Shown here: piece by piece, positions 1 to 13,332 of the stretch
Layout of the letters: every line of letters starts with the position of its first letter
Numbering within the stretch: position 1 is the stretch's first letter
Source: a virus
Direction: 5' to 3' (one strand)
Length of the DNA stretch: 38,946 nt
IMG/VR virus record: IMGVR_UViG_3300030382_003005
Location: 1-38,946 of that record
Program-made: the position numbers and the translations under genes
Notes under the pieces: generated by a model
Database searches by the model: none
Told to the model about the DNA's origin: nothing
The model's input: the letters and a program-made list of their open reading frames with translations, nothing else

Positions 1-303
1 CAGAATATCAGGGAGGATATGAACAGACCTTTAAAGATTAGTAGCGGAGTACGCTGTGCTAATCATAATTCCAAGGTAAGTTCAACTGGAAGTACTGGAC
101 CGCACGTACCAAGAACTAATGGTACAATGGCAAGCGATATTTTAATCGCAGGAGCAGATGCATTGAGGCTTATAGATATAGCGAGGAAGCATGGGATAAG
201 TGGAGTAGGTATATCGCAGAGAGGCAACCATGCAAAAAGATTCATTCACATAGATACACTCTCTGACGATAAACATCCTAGACCTACTATGTGGTCATAT
301 TAA
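1..303 (+). CDS. Peptidase M15-type endolysin (C-terminal part, 5' end outside window)
   Basis: Product resembles zinc D-Ala-D-Ala carboxypeptidase-like (M15A) phage endolysins that cleave peptidoglycan cross-bridges for lysis. Counting from the ATG at 19, there is an ISSGVRC block (residues 7-13), a putative first zinc-ligand region with H29 and D40 (the usual HxxGxAxD motif appears stretched by about four residues) and the closing FIHIDT motif with H77. The ATG at 19 has GGGAGG in front but with unusually short spacing. The in-frame codons upstream (1-18: Q-N-I-R-E-D) read like the helix that normally precedes the SGxR motif, and about 30 residues of the family N-terminus would otherwise be missing, so I place the true start left of the window. 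It ends in TAA at 301-303, overlapping the stop of the convergent ssb gene. Family call good, start unresolved. Confidence 0.75.
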   Translation, partial: QNIREDMNRPLKISSGVRCANHNSKVSSTGSTGPHVPRTNGTMASDILIAGADALRLIDIARKHGISGVGISQRGNHAKRFIHIDTLSDDKHPRPTMWSY

Positions 304-713
304 CTACCAAAAGGGTTAGCATCAGAAGTAATGTCAGGGTGTTCAAGAGAATCAACATAATTTACTTCTTCATTTATATGCATTGAATTAGCAGACTCAT
401 GCACTTTTGGAATAATAAACTTATCTACTAAGACTCTAAACTTCTTATTCCATTTACCCTCCTGATTCTTCCATGATTGTACCTGGATAGACCCTTTAGC
501 AACAAGGATTTCATCTCCTTGTCCTGCTTTTTTCATAAACTCTGCAGATAGTCCATATACAACACAGTCAACAAAAGTTGATTTTTCATCAAACTTCTTC
601 TTCCTGTCAATCTCCCTGCAACCTATAGCAAAATTACAGTATGCTGTTCCATTCTTAGTTTCACCATGTTCAGGTGCTTGTGCTATATTACCAAATAGTT
701 TTACATCATTCAT
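300..713 (-). CDS. ssb: Single-stranded DNA-binding protein
   Basis: 137-residue SSB. The N-terminal ~100 residues have OB-fold signatures: NDVKLFGNIAQAPE at the start, CNFAIGCRE, the FVDCVVYG strand and the KGSIQVQSW strand. An acidic linker follows, then the tail DANPFGS, a variant of the DDIPF tip that recruits partner proteins. It should coat ssDNA during replication and recombination and act with the exonuclease, annealing protein and RusA encoded upstream on the same strand. The start is set by the AAAGGTAAATATG module shared with several early genes. Last gene of the leftward cluster; its stop interlocks with the stop of the convergent endolysin gene. Confidence 0.9.
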   Translation of the reverse strand: MNDVKLFGNIAQAPEHGETKNGTAYCNFAIGCREIDRKKKFDEKSTFVDCVVYGLSAEFMKKAGQGDEILVAKGSIQVQSWKNQEGKWNKKFRVLVDKFIIPKVHESANSMHINEEVNYVDSLEHPDITSDANPFGS

Positions 714-1090: not shown

Positions 1091-1468
1091 TTAGTTAATT
1101 ATTATTTTACCAGCTCCGTCCGTCCATATCTTACTTGCAGTTACTTTCCAGATGGTTGCATCTTCTTTATGCGTTGCATCAAAAAGTCCTTTGAGATAAT
1201 TATCAATATCAGGCCGTTGCTGCATAGGTTTTCCTGCCATAAGAGCTTTCTTCTTCTTTGACCAGGATTTAGGCATTGGGACAAGAAAAATTATGTTTAA
1301 CTCATCCCAATTAAATGGAGGCTCGTCAATCAATAAAGCAGACTTTTCTTTAAGTTCTTGCTTTATACGATCCCGAAAGGCAAAGAAATCTAAGACACAT
1401 TGCCTTTTAGCCCATCTATCACGTTGTGTCATACGTGGTTTGCTACACGGAGGTACGTTTAGAATCAT
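1091..1468 (-). CDS. rusA: RusA-family Holliday junction resolvase
   Basis: 125 residues, normal for RusA. These Mg-dependent homodimeric endonucleases resolve four-way junctions. Visible signatures are the N-terminal strand ending in PPCSKPRMTQRDRW, the central FLVPMPKSWSKKK, and the catalytic motif RPDIDN (D87, D89) followed by a third acidic position in KEDATIW (around D103) and SKIW. The loop between the second and third acids looks somewhat shorter than in the E. coli protein. The start overlaps the stop of the alpha-CTD-like gene by an ATGA, so the two are translationally coupled. Probable role: resolving or trimming branched recombination intermediates before packaging. Confidence 0.88.
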   Translation of the reverse strand: MILNVPPCSKPRMTQRDRWAKRQCVLDFFAFRDRIKQELKEKSALLIDEPPFNWDELNIIFLVPMPKSWSKKKKALMAGKPMQQRPDIDNYLKGLFDATHKEDATIWKVTASKIWTDGAGKIIIN

Positions 1469-2391
1469 AATTTAAACTGCTTTATTATCCTTGCTTTCCT
1501 GAGTTCACGATCCGCTTTCTCTTTTTCCATATTAAGAGTATGACCTCTCTTTTTAAGTTCATCTATAACTTCACGGAGACATTTCCTACCAAAGCTCTTT
1601 ATTTTAATTAAATCAGTAGGTGAATAAGTAAGCAATTGTGCTACTCTCCTGATCCCATGATTCTTAATAGCATTATATGAACGTACAGATATATCAAGTT
1701 CATCCAAATCCTGATTATCCCAATTCTCCCTAGCTTCCTGATTTTGGATGTACCGCTTAGGTTCAACTGGAGTATTTCTAGGCAAGGTTGCACTTGAACC
1801 TAATACTCGCTTTGCAGCTTTCTTTAAAGTTGATTCAGCATTCTCAACAATCTCTGCCTTGAGAGTATCTTTCTCTTTGCTGGTATCAGACTTGATCCAA
1901 TCTTCAATGAGCTTAAACCTGTCCCACATTTCATCTTGGAGATCACGATAATCTTTTCGTAATTTATGAAGTTCTTTATCAGTTGTGTCGATAGCATTAT
2001 TAACCCTATCCTCTAAAGTCTCTAATTGGATTAATATGTACTTCGCACTTTTATCATCGAGTATCTTAAGTTTATCATTAACCTCTGCTCTCCAGTTCTT
2101 ACTTGTGTCGATAGCTTTATTGAGTCTTCCCTCTATTGCAGGTATTTTATCCAAAACCTCTCGGGGCCATTTCCCTTCTGAGCTAAACGCTTCTGTTGCT
2201 TGAGCTATTGCGCTGATTTTCTTTCCAAGCATATCTTCTGATGCTTCTAATGCCTGGTAATCAACAAAGGCTAACTGCTCTTGAAGTGCAGTAATTACTT
2301 GTGCAACTATATTATCGGCATCTCCATGTCCATTATTATTTTGGATACTGAGGAACATTCGACCGATCTCTTTGATTTCTTCGCTATTCAT
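1465..2391 (-). CDS. Coiled-coil protein with RNA polymerase alpha C-terminal-like domain
   Basis: 308 residues. Residues ~1-195 are highly charged and helical, with features of long coiled coils; a short phrase (NKAIDT at 91-96, NNAIDT at 131-136) recurs after 40 residues. A basic linker leads to residues ~229-288, which closely match the two-HhH fold of the bacterial RNA polymerase alpha-CTD: DELDISVRSYNAIK, then LTYSPTDLIKIKSFGRKC, then DELKKRGHTLNM. Equivalents of the E. coli alpha DNA-contact residues R265, N268, G296, K298 and E302 are present (R237, N240, G268, K270, E274). The domain could bind AT-rich UP-element DNA or touch sigma/activators; the coiled coil would multimerise it. Start uses the AAAAAGGTAGATATG leader; the stop is coupled to rusA. 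Domain call strong, function inferred. Confidence 0.8.
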   Translation of the reverse strand: MNSEEIKEIGRMFLSIQNNNGHGDADNIVAQVITALQEQLAFVDYQALEASEDMLGKKISAIAQATEAFSSEGKWPREVLDKIPAIEGRLNKAIDTSKNWRAEVNDKLKILDDKSAKYILIQLETLEDRVNNAIDTTDKELHKLRKDYRDLQDEMWDRFKLIEDWIKSDTSKEKDTLKAEIVENAESTLKKAAKRVLGSSATLPRNTPVEPKRYIQNQEARENWDNQDLDELDISVRSYNAIKNHGIRRVAQLLTYSPTDLIKIKSFGRKCLREVIDELKKRGHTLNMEKEKADRELRKARIIKQFKL

Positions 2392-2401
2392 ATCTACCTT
2401 T

Positions 2402-2656
2402 TTAGATTAGTTTGAGCTGACTTTCATCTACTGGTTTCCAGCGATAGTCAACTAGATTATAAGTTCCTTTCTTGAATTTACTATTCAACTTCTTAGTCTG
2501 TGAGTTGCCATTCTTTAACTCCTCTACAGATAGGAACATTTTCTTTCCGTCATGTTCTACTTCCAATCCTCCTTCCTTTATTGCCTTGTTTACAATATAA
2601 TCTCTAACTGAGACGAGATGACCCATCCAGAGTTTCTTCACTTTTACTGATACCAT
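2402..2656 (-). CDS. Hypothetical basic protein
   Basis: 84 residues, lysine-rich, no family recognised. It begins VSVKVKKLWMGHLVSVRDYIVNKA and looks like a compact alpha/beta domain: a strand, a helix (RDYIVNKAIKEGG), two strands around EVEHDGKKMFLSVEEL, then a basic tail ending YRWKPVDESQLKLI. The charge suggests nucleic-acid binding, but no catalytic motif is visible. An AAAGAGGATAT ribosome site precedes the ATG at 2656. It is the gene directly upstream of the alpha-CTD-like gene, with a 10-base gap, so the two are probably co-expressed. Confidence 0.65.
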   Translation of the reverse strand: MVSVKVKKLWMGHLVSVRDYIVNKAIKEGGLEVEHDGKKMFLSVEELKNGNSQTKKLNSKFKKGTYNLVDYRWKPVDESQLKLI

Positions 2657-2705: not shown

Positions 2706-3194
2706 CTAATCCAAATTTTGGGCGTGATCATAGAAATAACAGTAATCTCGACCATGTGCATCTCTAGTTAGCCTAAATCTCATACCATCTTGTACACCTT
2801 CATGTGGTGCTTTAACCAAGTGGTTTGTTTTAGACTCTCCTTGCATTATTGCATTTACTAATTTAGGAACCATTTCCTTTGAAATCTTAGTATAATTTTG
2901 TTTACTCTGTTTCCCATATTGATGTTCCAGGTTAGCAGACTGTCTTTTAAAGAAATTAACCTCTTTTTCTTTGTAAATTTGCATAAATTCTGCTATAGTA
3001 GGCATCTTAAGGGTAACACCTTTGCCATCAGTAATCTGTTCATATGCTTCTCTCAACAGATCAGTATTTGGGATACCTAATTTCTGTTGCCATATTACCA
3101 GTTTACTCTCCTGCATTGGAATATTGAATGCTTCGCAAAGTTGAGCGACTAACATTCTTACTTGTGGATGTATGTTCGGCTCTTGTATTTCCAT
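2706..3194 (-). CDS. Helicase-loader / replisome-organiser-like protein (tentative)
   Basis: 162 residues from the ATG at 3194. An in-frame TTG at 3200 would add two residues, but AAAGGA lies at better spacing for the ATG. The middle resembles phage G39P/DnaI-type loader N-termini: a helical segment (MLVAQLCEAFNIPM, LVIWQQKLG) followed by LKMPTIAEFMQIYKEK, where MPTIAEF is a phrase typical of such proteins. These proteins deliver the host replicative helicase to the phage origin. The start lies inside the previous gene, overlapping it by about 90 bases in another frame, which suggests tight translational coupling between two replication proteins. Family call is weak; hypothetical is the fallback. 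Confidence 0.55.
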   Translation of the reverse strand: MEIQEPNIHPQVRMLVAQLCEAFNIPMQESKLVIWQQKLGIPNTDLLREAYEQITDGKGVTLKMPTIAEFMQIYKEKEVNFFKRQSANLEHQYGKQSKQNYTKISKEMVPKLVNAIMQGESKTNHLVKAPHEGVQDGMRFRLTRDAHGRDYCYFYDHAQNLD

Positions 3195-3624
3195 TTTCAA
3201 ATTCCTTTCTAGCTATAGCCATTTGATGACTTGTATCAAGATACTGTCGATTATTTTTGGTTGGTTGGGCATTATTTATGATGCCGTTGTATTGATTGCC
3301 TTTATTGCCAATACCTTGCCAACCGTTGAGCATAACAGCATTTAGTAGTTCATTAGGATCAACCCCATCACCTTTAGCTCGTGCTAGTGCTTTGATCATT
3401 AATTCTTCTGCATGTGGAGTCATTTTCTTCTTGATCGTGACTCTGTGCTGTTTGAAGTGCTCCCAAACTATAGGATCTATATAGTCTGGTAATCTCTGAT
3501 CCGATGCTAACCGAGTAAAACACTCTTTAACAATTGCAATAGCATCTCCTTCAATAGTTCCTTCCCATTGAAGCATCTTGAACTCTTTAATCATCTGGTT
3601 CATACATTCTTTAACTGTTTTCAT
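3103..3624 (-). CDS. Phage replication-initiation-like protein
   Basis: 173 residues. Residues ~45-105 carry the pattern WEHFKQHRVTIKKKMTP, a long helix, GVDPNELLNAVMLNGWQGI, which I recognise from the C-terminal region of phage replication proteins and DnaT-like helicase partners (the recurrent W..f...R ... lt ... G.dp..il..s...gW.g pattern). The rest is a low-complexity Asn/Thr/Ser-rich tail encoded partly over the next gene. Likely acts with the downstream loader-like protein to recruit the host replisome. No winged-helix N-terminus of the kind found in lambda O-type initiators is obvious. The start overlaps the upstream stop by ATGA. Confidence 0.6.
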   Translation of the reverse strand: MKTVKECMNQMIKEFKMLQWEGTIEGDAIAIVKECFTRLASDQRLPDYIDPIVWEHFKQHRVTIKKKMTPHAEELMIKALARAKGDGVDPNELLNAVMLNGWQGIGNKGNQYNGIINNAQPTKNNRQYLDTSHQMAIARKEFENGNTRAEHTSTSKNVSRSTLRSIQYSNAGE

Positions 3625-3830
3625 GCTGCCTCCTCCATTGCTTCTTTTAAAACATCCTTGAATAGCCGACTGACAGCATTTTTATGTTCCAGAGTCTCTT
3701 TTAACTTAGGCTTATAGGTATTTCGTCTTCTCTTTAAGTCTTGCTCAAAGTAACCCATAATAACCTCATTGCATCGTACTATTCCTTCTACATATGCAGA
3801 TTTTCTAATTGGAGTTACGAAATCACTCAT
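3621..3830 (-). CDS. Small basic helical protein
   Basis: 69 residues, no family recognised. It is helical throughout: VTPIRKSAYVEGIVRCNEVI, a strongly basic stretch LKRRRNTYKPKLKET, then HKNAVSRLFKDVLKEAMEEAA. The charge suggests a DNA- or RNA-binding accessory. It overlaps both neighbours by ATGA (3621-3624 and 3827-3830), between the annealing protein and the replication-initiation-like protein, so translation is probably coupled along the three genes. Confidence 0.65.
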   Translation of the reverse strand: MSDFVTPIRKSAYVEGIVRCNEVIMGYFEQDLKRRRNTYKPKLKETLEHKNAVSRLFKDVLKEAMEEAA

Positions 3831-4561
3831 GCACCCTCCTTTGGAAACTTACCATTGAGATATTTCATGAATATAACAAGCGATTCATAATCCTTGAACT
3901 CCATTGTACTCTTCCAGTTAGCAATAGAAGTCTCACAAAACTCTTTCAGTAAGTCTTTATTACCAAGATTTGCTTCTGCATGTACTGATATTGCACTTTC
4001 AGCAGCATCATCATTGAAATCTGCAAGTACTAAGGCTAGTAATTCTTCTCTATCTGCATCAGGGCAACCTTCAACGAAGATTTTGGCTATTGATGTCCTG
4101 TATTTGACATACAGATTTTCACCAATACTTGCTTGTGGTGCTTCCATCATATTTGTCAGTTCCTTTTTCTTAGTCTGACTTTTCTTAGCTTTCTTTACTT
4201 CCTGCTGCTGGATTGCACCATCAACCTCATTTGCTGAAGCATAGGCATCTTCAATACCAATACCAAAAGCTGCTAATGCTCTTCCAATTGCACTAGTTTC
4301 GCAATTTTCTACATAACTAGTAGCATTAACAAAGGAATTAGGATCATCTTGTCGTTCATGTGCAATTCCACTACCAACAACACGACCAGTTTGGTCTGTG
4401 ATCCATGCTTGTATGATTATTTCACTCTTTTCTTTGTGCCACTCTATTACTTTGGTTTTTATACCAAACATTTCATCTTTGTCACCATAGTTTTCACGAA
4501 GATGCTTCACACGTTCATTTACTTGAACATATGGCTTACCTTTAATCATCGTTTTTTCCAT
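3827..4561 (-). CDS. Single-strand annealing recombinase (ERF/Rad52-like superfamily)
   Basis: 244 residues. The core (about 8-115) starts KPYVQVNERVKHLRENYG and includes a strand-rich segment (IIIQAWITDQTGRVVGSGIA) and the conserved helix SYVENCETSAIGRALAAFG followed by ASANEV. That pattern is typical of phage ssDNA-annealing proteins. A lysine/glutamine-rich linker (~118-135) leads to a helical C-terminal domain that could bind SSB or another partner. It would pair the ssDNA ends made by the YqaJ exonuclease encoded just upstream; such exonuclease-annealing pairs build packaging concatemers. Leader CTGAAAGGTTAAGATG belongs to the recurring early module. The gap in front (4562-4813) holds a palindromic operator candidate. 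Confidence 0.78.
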   Translation of the reverse strand: MEKTMIKGKPYVQVNERVKHLRENYGDKDEMFGIKTKVIEWHKEKSEIIIQAWITDQTGRVVGSGIAHERQDDPNSFVNATSYVENCETSAIGRALAAFGIGIEDAYASANEVDGAIQQQEVKKAKKSQTKKKELTNMMEAPQASIGENLYVKYRTSIAKIFVEGCPDADREELLALVLADFNDDAAESAISVHAEANLGNKDLLKEFCETSIANWKSTMEFKDYESLVIFMKYLNGKFPKEGA

Positions 4562-11019: not shown

Positions 11020-11276
11020 ACTAAGAAAGATATTACTATTGTTATTATTAGTGTCTAATCATGTAGTAGTAGGATAACTATTATATAGTCCTGTCTACCC
11101 TCTATACATGTGTGTCTTCTGTTAGGACAAGGTATAGTTTTAACACACAGTACACACACAGATTGTTTTAACACACAGATTAGTCATGCCACCCCTCCCC
11201 ACAAAAAGACCACCTCGGGCTCCTATAAACATCCCTATCACCTACACGGAGAGAAAATAGGTAAACAAGAATAAAC

Positions 11277-11306
11277 TTGACATTATTTATATATTTTCTG
11301 TATACT
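11277..11306 (+). promoter_or_regulatory. Strong late promoter (sigma70-like)
   Basis: TTGACA (11277-11282), 18 bases, TATACT (11301-11306); start expected near 11313. A-rich DNA lies just upstream of the -35. It is the first promoter ahead of the plus-strand late genes and implies use of host RNA polymerase. Confidence 0.8.

Positions 11307-11836: not shown

Positions 11837-11837
<1 letters not shown>
11421..11837 (+). CDS. terS: Terminase small subunit
   Basis: 138 residues from the ATG at 11421. The frame is open from 11277, but that position is the -35 box of the promoter and cannot be the start; GTG 11379 is the other option. An N-terminal HTH-like part (ILCSLQEGGYKLNKTTGYNL) is followed by QERLRGSGPKALSVVEQLM and DSETVRLGAAKDMLDRGGF, the phrase typical of small terminases that tile along DNA and hand it to the large subunit. 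Basic/charged C-terminal helix. First gene of the late operon; its TAA overlaps the next ATG (TAATG). The large subunit gene lies five genes downstream. Confidence 0.78.
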
Positions 11838-12655
<818 letters not shown>

Positions 12656-12669
12656 TGTAACGAGGCACA

Positions 12670-13332
12670 ATGGGAAAAACCTTGATAAATCCTAAGAACC
12701 AGAAAACGTATGGTGGTGACGACCAAATTCCAGACGAAAACTACTATAATGGAGTATTCTTTTCAAATCCAGAACTAGCTCAGATGTTCAGAGATAACAA
12801 TTGGAATACCACATTGAAAGTGGGAGATCCTGAACCTGAACCTGAAACTGAAACTCCGAGAGGAGGGGCAAAAAAAGATGGGTCTAAGAAGAAGTGGCAT
12901 TGGATTGATGATGATCGTATTCCTAGCCAAGCAGAGATTGATTTTTATGCAAGTTTCGATGAAGAAGGGAATCCTACAGAAGAAACCACGATAACACAAG
13001 ATCATCTCGATGAAATTGGCATGGGTGGAGGAGATGATGGACAAGGATTTACAGTAGATGATGTTGGTCCTGGCGTAGAAGTAAATGCTGATGAAATACC
13101 AAAAGAAATGCCAGGATTTACTTCTGAGCATAACCCCTACATAGATCCCATGACAGGAGAAAAGAAGTTTCTAACTAGAGAGCAATGGAGTGCATCTATA
13201 GGAGAAGACGAAAAATATGGTAAAGGTAGAGGGTTCACCGCACCTGAAGGTGGAAAAGTAAAATCAGGTACTTTAAGGCGAAATATTAGGAAGATGGCTC
13301 CCTCATTGATCTCTGGTAGTAGAACATCATGA
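12670..13332 (+). CDS. Acidic paralogue B with C-terminal LRR tag
   Basis: 220 residues. Begins MGKTLINPKNQKTYGGDDQI, matching the N-terminal ~52 residues of paralogue A with few changes, and ends SGTLRRNIRKMAPSLI plus a short tail. The middle is unrelated to A: Glu/Pro/Thr-rich, with KKWHWIDDDRIPSQAEIDFY, then ENPYID-like and MTGEKKFLTREQW segments. It looks like a duplicated gene whose centre has been replaced or has diverged. Function unknown; role with terminase or virion inferred from position. Stop overlaps the next ATG (ATGA). Confidence 0.7.
   Translation: MGKTLINPKNQKTYGGDDQIPDENYYNGVFFSNPELAQMFRDNNWNTTLKVGDPEPEPETETPRGGAKKDGSKKKWHWIDDDRIPSQAEIDFYASFDEEGNPTEETTITQDHLDEIGMGGGDDGQGFTVDDVGPGVEVNADEIPKEMPGFTSEHNPYIDPMTGEKKFLTREQWSASIGEDEKYGKGRGFTAPEGGKVKSGTLRRNIRKMAPSLISGSRTS

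Follow-up and report, generated by a model that had tools for sequence, protein, structure and literature searches.

A phage protein with a detached RNA polymerase alphaCTD, encoded where relatives carry a sigma region 4 protein

We analyzed a 38,946-nucleotide stretch of DNA (the window), an IMG/VR virus record from a marine virus of bacteria, and found that it encodes a 308-aa protein whose C-terminus is a true RNA polymerase alphaCTD. Its gene occupies a position, between the conserved 'IHPQV' protein and a RusA-like Holliday junction resolvase, which related phages fill with a sigma region 4 protein. Our preferred reading, to which we give an even chance, is that the product is a phage factor that oligomerizes, uses its alphaCTD on A-rich DNA and with sigma region 4, and redirects the host polymerase. 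The coordinates of the features discussed are collected in Table 1.

When the 308-aa protein was searched against Pfam, RNA_pol_A_CTD (PF03118) was the sole confident domain (residues 220–280, E=5.5e-18; 64.9 bits against a curated cut-off of 23.8). HHH_5, the generic HhH model, scored 17.9 bits and remained below its cut-off of 27, and the matches among PDB sequences were polymerase alpha subunits throughout to E=3e-4 (best E=3.2e-11). There was no Pfam match to alphaNTD, with which alpha dimerizes and binds beta/beta', and a protein lacking this part cannot take the place of alpha in the core enzyme. NCBIfam alpha-subunit models reached 41–66 bits against cut-offs of 228–523, with essentially the CTD being matched. 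No PHROGs family matched the protein, which is uninformative because E. coli alpha likewise matches none. Weak NCBIfam matches of residues 214–296 to BREX PglW and to a beta' model (PRK14906) were also seen, suggesting from the sequence that alphaCTD-like domains may be reused in other proteins.

The AlphaFold2 model, built from a five-sequence family alignment, had a pLDDT of about 86–91 across residues 231–300. The modeled domain superposed on E. coli alphaCTD 250–316 with a Z score of 14.1 and an rmsd of 1.2 Å over 67 residues, and on the DNA-bound chain 1lb2_E with a Z score of 12.9 and 1.2 Å, and we infer from this match that the DNA-contact residues are surface-exposed. The Pfam match, the predicted fold and the contact residues described below together confirmed the alphaCTD assignment made in the preliminary description, which had named an unrelated HhH family as the alternative. 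The same description had claimed a coiled coil over the first ~195 residues. For residues 1–199 the model shows helices, predicted with low confidence (pLDDT about 40–77), and a 3-4 heptad pattern near residues 123–157, where the helical model is also of low confidence, exceeded that in shuffled sequences (p about 0.015). This part is thus predicted to be helical, and a coiled coil is likely, less firmly than had been claimed.

By residue mapping, R265, N268, K271, G296, K298 and E302 of E. coli alpha have identical counterparts in the window protein (R237, N240, K243, G268, K270 and E274, respectively), and the 265 determinant shows two changes, C269 to A and S299 to C. The acidic 261 patch of alphaCTD faces sigma region 4 on host promoters. 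This patch is kept in the window protein (D, E and D at E. coli D258, D259 and E261), whereas the CRP-facing 287 patch is altered, with S, P, T and D at 285–288 (T285S, E286P, V287T) and R317E. Judged by these residues, the domain looks competent to bind DNA and sigma and not CRP-like activators; the comparison is with E. coli alpha.

Table 1. Features of the window and, in the last row, of related contigs
Feature	Position	Strand	Remarks
Single-strand DNA-binding protein	300..713	(-)	Same gene run as the alphaCTD gene
RusA-like Holliday junction resolvase	1091..1468	(-)	Constant downstream neighbor; synteny anchor
Helical-arm/alphaCTD protein gene (308 aa)	1465..2391	(-)	Stop overlaps RusA start via ATGA
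Extra C-terminal helix, residues 288–307	1471..1530	(-)	AlphaFold2 model; absent from the preliminary description
AlphaCTD-like domain, residues 223–287	1531..1725	(-)	R237, N240, G268, K270 and E274 present
Linker, residues 200–222, probably flexible, low-confidence	1726..1794	(-)	pLDDT below 50 at residues 196–222
N-terminal helical part, residues 1–199, probable coiled coil	1795..2391	(-)	W165 and I166 invariant (family motif around WIK)
84 aa protein, between IHPQV anchor and alphaCTD gene	2402..2656	(-)	Relatives in L003 and L162
Conserved 'IHPQV' protein, function not assigned	2706..3200	(-)	Upstream anchor of the slot
Purine/A-rich stretch abutting the -35 element upstream; candidate target DNA	11247..11276	(+)	
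Promoter of structural operon, TTGACA-N18-TATACT, near-consensus sigma70	11277..11306	(+)	Kept in relatives
XRE-like HTH + sigma region 4 protein	L162:5568-6236; L163:5007-5690		Pfam/RpoD_Cterm/phrog_351

Members of the protein family were found in only a small number of contigs from uncultured viruses, either in the position just upstream of RusA or beside it. With RusA as an anchor, homologues were located in L003/L081 (G001), L064/L088 (G012), L082 (G020), L083 (G021) and L091 (G019), where one gene separates the alphaCTD gene from RusA. L082 and L083 are a near-identical pair, and the distinct members are five: window, L003, L064, L082 and L091. Each opens with MN(S/K/T)(E/D)E, has an invariant central WI with charged residues after it, and carries the CTD; the terminal FKL of the window protein recurs in L003 and L091. 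The PF03118 cut-off was passed by four of the five (besides the window, L003 with 59.2, L082 with 36.8 and L091 with 26.3), and the L064 homologue (P0003) scored 21.0, just under it. Alignment-based searches returned only members already known, a full-length IMG/VR search with the window protein gave no match, and two scans of genome contigs, using short search patterns that limit sensitivity, found no bacterial or prophage homologue. Many tblastn 'phage' matches were set aside, most being taken as host: annotated alpha subunits, or unannotated records named as phages. With cultured pelagiphages, the only gene in common was a distant portal (about 30%), and no alphaCTD gene is annotated in two of their genomes.

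All five main contact residues (R265, N268, G296, K298 and E302) are retained in the window and L003. L082, L091 and L064 have only the R265 and G296 equivalents left; the E302 equivalent is K in each of them, and N268 and K298 are also replaced. Since three of the five distinct members have lost these residues, canonical minor-groove binding is not a constant of the family. The most diverged member, P0003, has a predicted alphaCTD fold (Z 11.9, rmsd 1.7 Å, from the five-sequence alignment); as modeled, one branch appears to have dropped most DNA contacts yet retained the fold.

Pairwise identity in the same phages was 16–36% for the alphaCTD protein, 34–72% for its IHPQV neighbor and 45–86% for RusA (36%, 51% and 61%, respectively, between window and L003). 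The alphaCTD protein evolves faster than its neighbors, the identities being a rough guide only, as the region is mosaic, with RusA and IHPQV trees that conflict in places. Fast divergence is expected for host-facing factors, and it speaks for an alternative in which the oligomers would cover A-rich DNA of strong host promoters (e.g. rRNA) or titrate either sigma region 4 or those activators that bind alphaCTD, so that host transcription would drop and no phage promoter would be activated. Such a shut-off would draw on the same retained contact residues as the preferred reading. We nevertheless consider it unlikely, as the altered 287 patch argues against titration of CRP-like activators and no host target can be named for it.

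The plus strand of the window carries a podovirus-like structural operon (portal phrog_332, terminase, capsid and tail tubular protein). The minus-strand genes for SSB, RusA, an O-like replication protein and a YqaJ/RecE-type exonuclease surround the alphaCTD gene, in agreement with the replication/recombination setting described for it earlier; the statement that no phage RNA polymerase is visible also held, none being recognized among the large unannotated ORFs tested. The 84 aa protein has relatives in L003, at the equivalent position, and in L162, on the downstream side of RusA. Two further observations concern other genes of the window. The tandem ORFs 11837-12655 and 12670-13332 have a common start MGKTLINPKNQ.TYGGDD and are probable paralogues; the central part of the former is highly acidic and rich in repeats. 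A phrog_11717 protein of no assigned function (3827-4561) adjoins the YqaJ exonuclease and is retained in relatives; by position, one might guess that it is a candidate single-strand annealing partner.

Between IHPQV and RusA, the alphaCTD protein is replaced in L094/L162 (G022) and L163/L164 (G023, G024) by a sigma-like protein of 222–227 aa. It is unrelated to the window protein in sequence, with a weak match to an XRE-like HTH at the N-terminus (E about 0.1) and sigma70 region 4 (PF04545) at the C-terminus, where L163 scored 34.8 bits against a cut-off of 24.1 and L094/L162 22.8, just under. The L162 protein matched RpoD_Cterm with E=9e-13, and the slot sigma protein matched phrog_351 (sigma factor) with E=8e-11. 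When 25 records, a count that includes short fragments and near-duplicates, were searched with both queries, the alphaCTD protein was found in six, the sigma protein in three and both in none; because some records are near-duplicates, these amount to five and two distinct cases, respectively.

The sigma proteins of L162 and L163 are 68% identical despite 38% identity in IHPQV, and the RusA proteins of the two are 83% identical; the sigma gene therefore probably moved between lineages, perhaps with RusA. L163 and L165 differ in the presence of the sigma gene (in L163 only) despite flanks that are about 98–99% identical, indicating that genes readily enter and leave the slot. It is variable in general, as small zinc-ribbon-like or other genes are found there too; small cysteine-containing genes of the former kind lie in or beside it at L084:4711-5004, L165:2183-2395 and L163:4820-5020. 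On promoters, alphaCTD and sigma region 4 adjoin each other. The strongest functional pointer, which we take as a hint, is that two unrelated proteins in the same slot both have promoter-recognition domains of the host polymerase, suggesting that the slot holds varied tools for steering that enzyme.

The position of the gene also bears on a different explanation, namely that the alphaCTD fold is a plain HhH minor-groove binder that would organize replicating DNA and aid RusA, SSB and the YqaJ exonuclease on it. The 4-base ATGA overlap between the alphaCTD stop and the RusA start, which the coordinates of L003 reproduce, makes translational coupling probable; the gene adjoins RusA in most members and has SSB, the O-like replication protein and YqaJ as neighbors, and the fold is retained while the contact residues diverge. 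We regard this accessory role as improbable, because the top-scoring model is alphaCTD and not generic HhH, because an RpoD-like sigma region 4 protein takes the slot elsewhere, and because neither gene was seen in several related phages that do have RusA, so that the alphaCTD protein is dispensable for recombination.

The sigma70-type promoter of the structural operon was found in the same form in L005, L012 and G001 and as the variant TTGACA-N18-TAGACT in L041, and its distance to the small terminase start is similar across relatives (132–145 nt). The purine/A-rich DNA upstream is partly conserved in the window, L005, L012, L041 and G001. Relative to the window background, its A content is unusual in L041 and the window and less so in L012 and G001, and the DNA upstream of the window promoter is no consensus UP element. 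G022, which has the sigma protein, retains the A-rich DNA and TTGACA and lacks a good -10 (TATACT); no such promoter was found in G019 (divergent alphaCTD) or G015 (neither gene). These results fit a scheme in which phages with a canonical alphaCTD rely on a sigma70 promoter combined with an alphaCTD-type target. They also fit simple phylogeny: the promoter marks the window's own clade as well, so common descent by itself may account for its association with the alphaCTD gene. The contigs L005, L012 and L041, which have the promoter, do not span the slot.

According to the preferred reading, a phage transcription factor would originate within the replication/recombination gene run and oligomerize through its N-terminal helices. 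Upstream of sigma70 promoters, its tethered alphaCTD-like domains would bind A-rich DNA in the minor groove, with the acidic 261 patch facing sigma region 4, and the factor would stand in for the host alphaCTD, add to it or displace it and so redirect host RNA polymerase, whether up or down. The structural-operon promoter (11247-11306) may be one target. The observed basis consists of the domain, its fold, residue conservation, gene position, the slot exchange with sigma region 4 and the conserved promoter. Against it stand the variable DNA contacts, the RusA overlap and recombination neighbors, the variable slot and a promoter that possibly reflects phylogeny. The transcription role proposed in the preliminary description thus gains from the sigma region 4 slot protein and the conserved sigma70-type promoter, whereas the DNA contacts on which it drew do not extend to the whole family and the RusA overlap counts against it. 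Binding to DNA and polymerase is predicted, and the present evidence fits a UP-element competitor, a bridge and a switch alike. A more specific proposal, which we consider less likely, is module swapping, in which a detached, oligomeric alphaCTD would join host RNA polymerase in trans at phage promoters and relatives would use a detached sigma region 4 from the same slot.

Compared with RNA polymerase alpha, the window protein is alike in the sequence, predicted fold, five main contact residues and acidic 261 patch of the CTD (PF03118); it differs in lacking alphaNTD, in having long helices and a further C-terminal helix fused to the CTD, and in its 287 patch. The slot proteins of G022–G024 (PF04545, phrog_351) have in common with it the genomic position and the theme of promoter recognition. 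Annotated phage alphaCTD proteins exist in Bacillus phage Goe8 (c00050, 210 aa), Caulobacter phage CcrColossus (gp133, 284 aa), Rhodococcus phage Finch and uncultured Caudovirales (111–204 aa). Like the window protein, these have an alphaCTD-like domain outside a full alpha, those of Finch and the Caudovirales by fold match only. The N-terminal part of c00050 is dissimilar to that of the window protein, and in gp133 the domain is N-terminal rather than C-terminal. A literature search, mainly of openly accessible papers, turned up none that describes an alphaCTD protein encoded by a phage. Annotations of free alphaCTDs in phages already exist, and the architecture and the slot exchange appear to be new.

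Phage T4 ADP-ribosylates R265 of alpha (Alt/ModA) and appropriates sigma (MotA/AsiA), acting, as the proposed factor would, at the alphaCTD/sigma region 4 end of the host polymerase (PMC2988021). It is very unlikely that the window protein is a soluble decoy absorbing factors, from the host or from rival phages, that target alphaCTD much as the T4 enzymes target R265 (PMC2988021). In favor of a decoy, no main contact residue other than the equivalents of R265 and G296 is invariant across the five members. Against it, a conserved Arg there also serves DNA binding or the fold, and no attacking enzyme of that sort is known for the host of this phage. Where T4 modifies or displaces alphaCTD and sigma region 4, the window phage would provide its own copy of the domain.

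Phages modify, block or recruit host alphaCTD and sigma region 4. If the preferred reading is true, a phage's own detached alphaCTD on an oligomerizing arm, evolutionarily exchangeable with a sigma region 4 that is likewise detached, would amount to a different route of takeover, and it would provide a direct test of whether an alphaCTD untethered from the polymerase still functions at a promoter.
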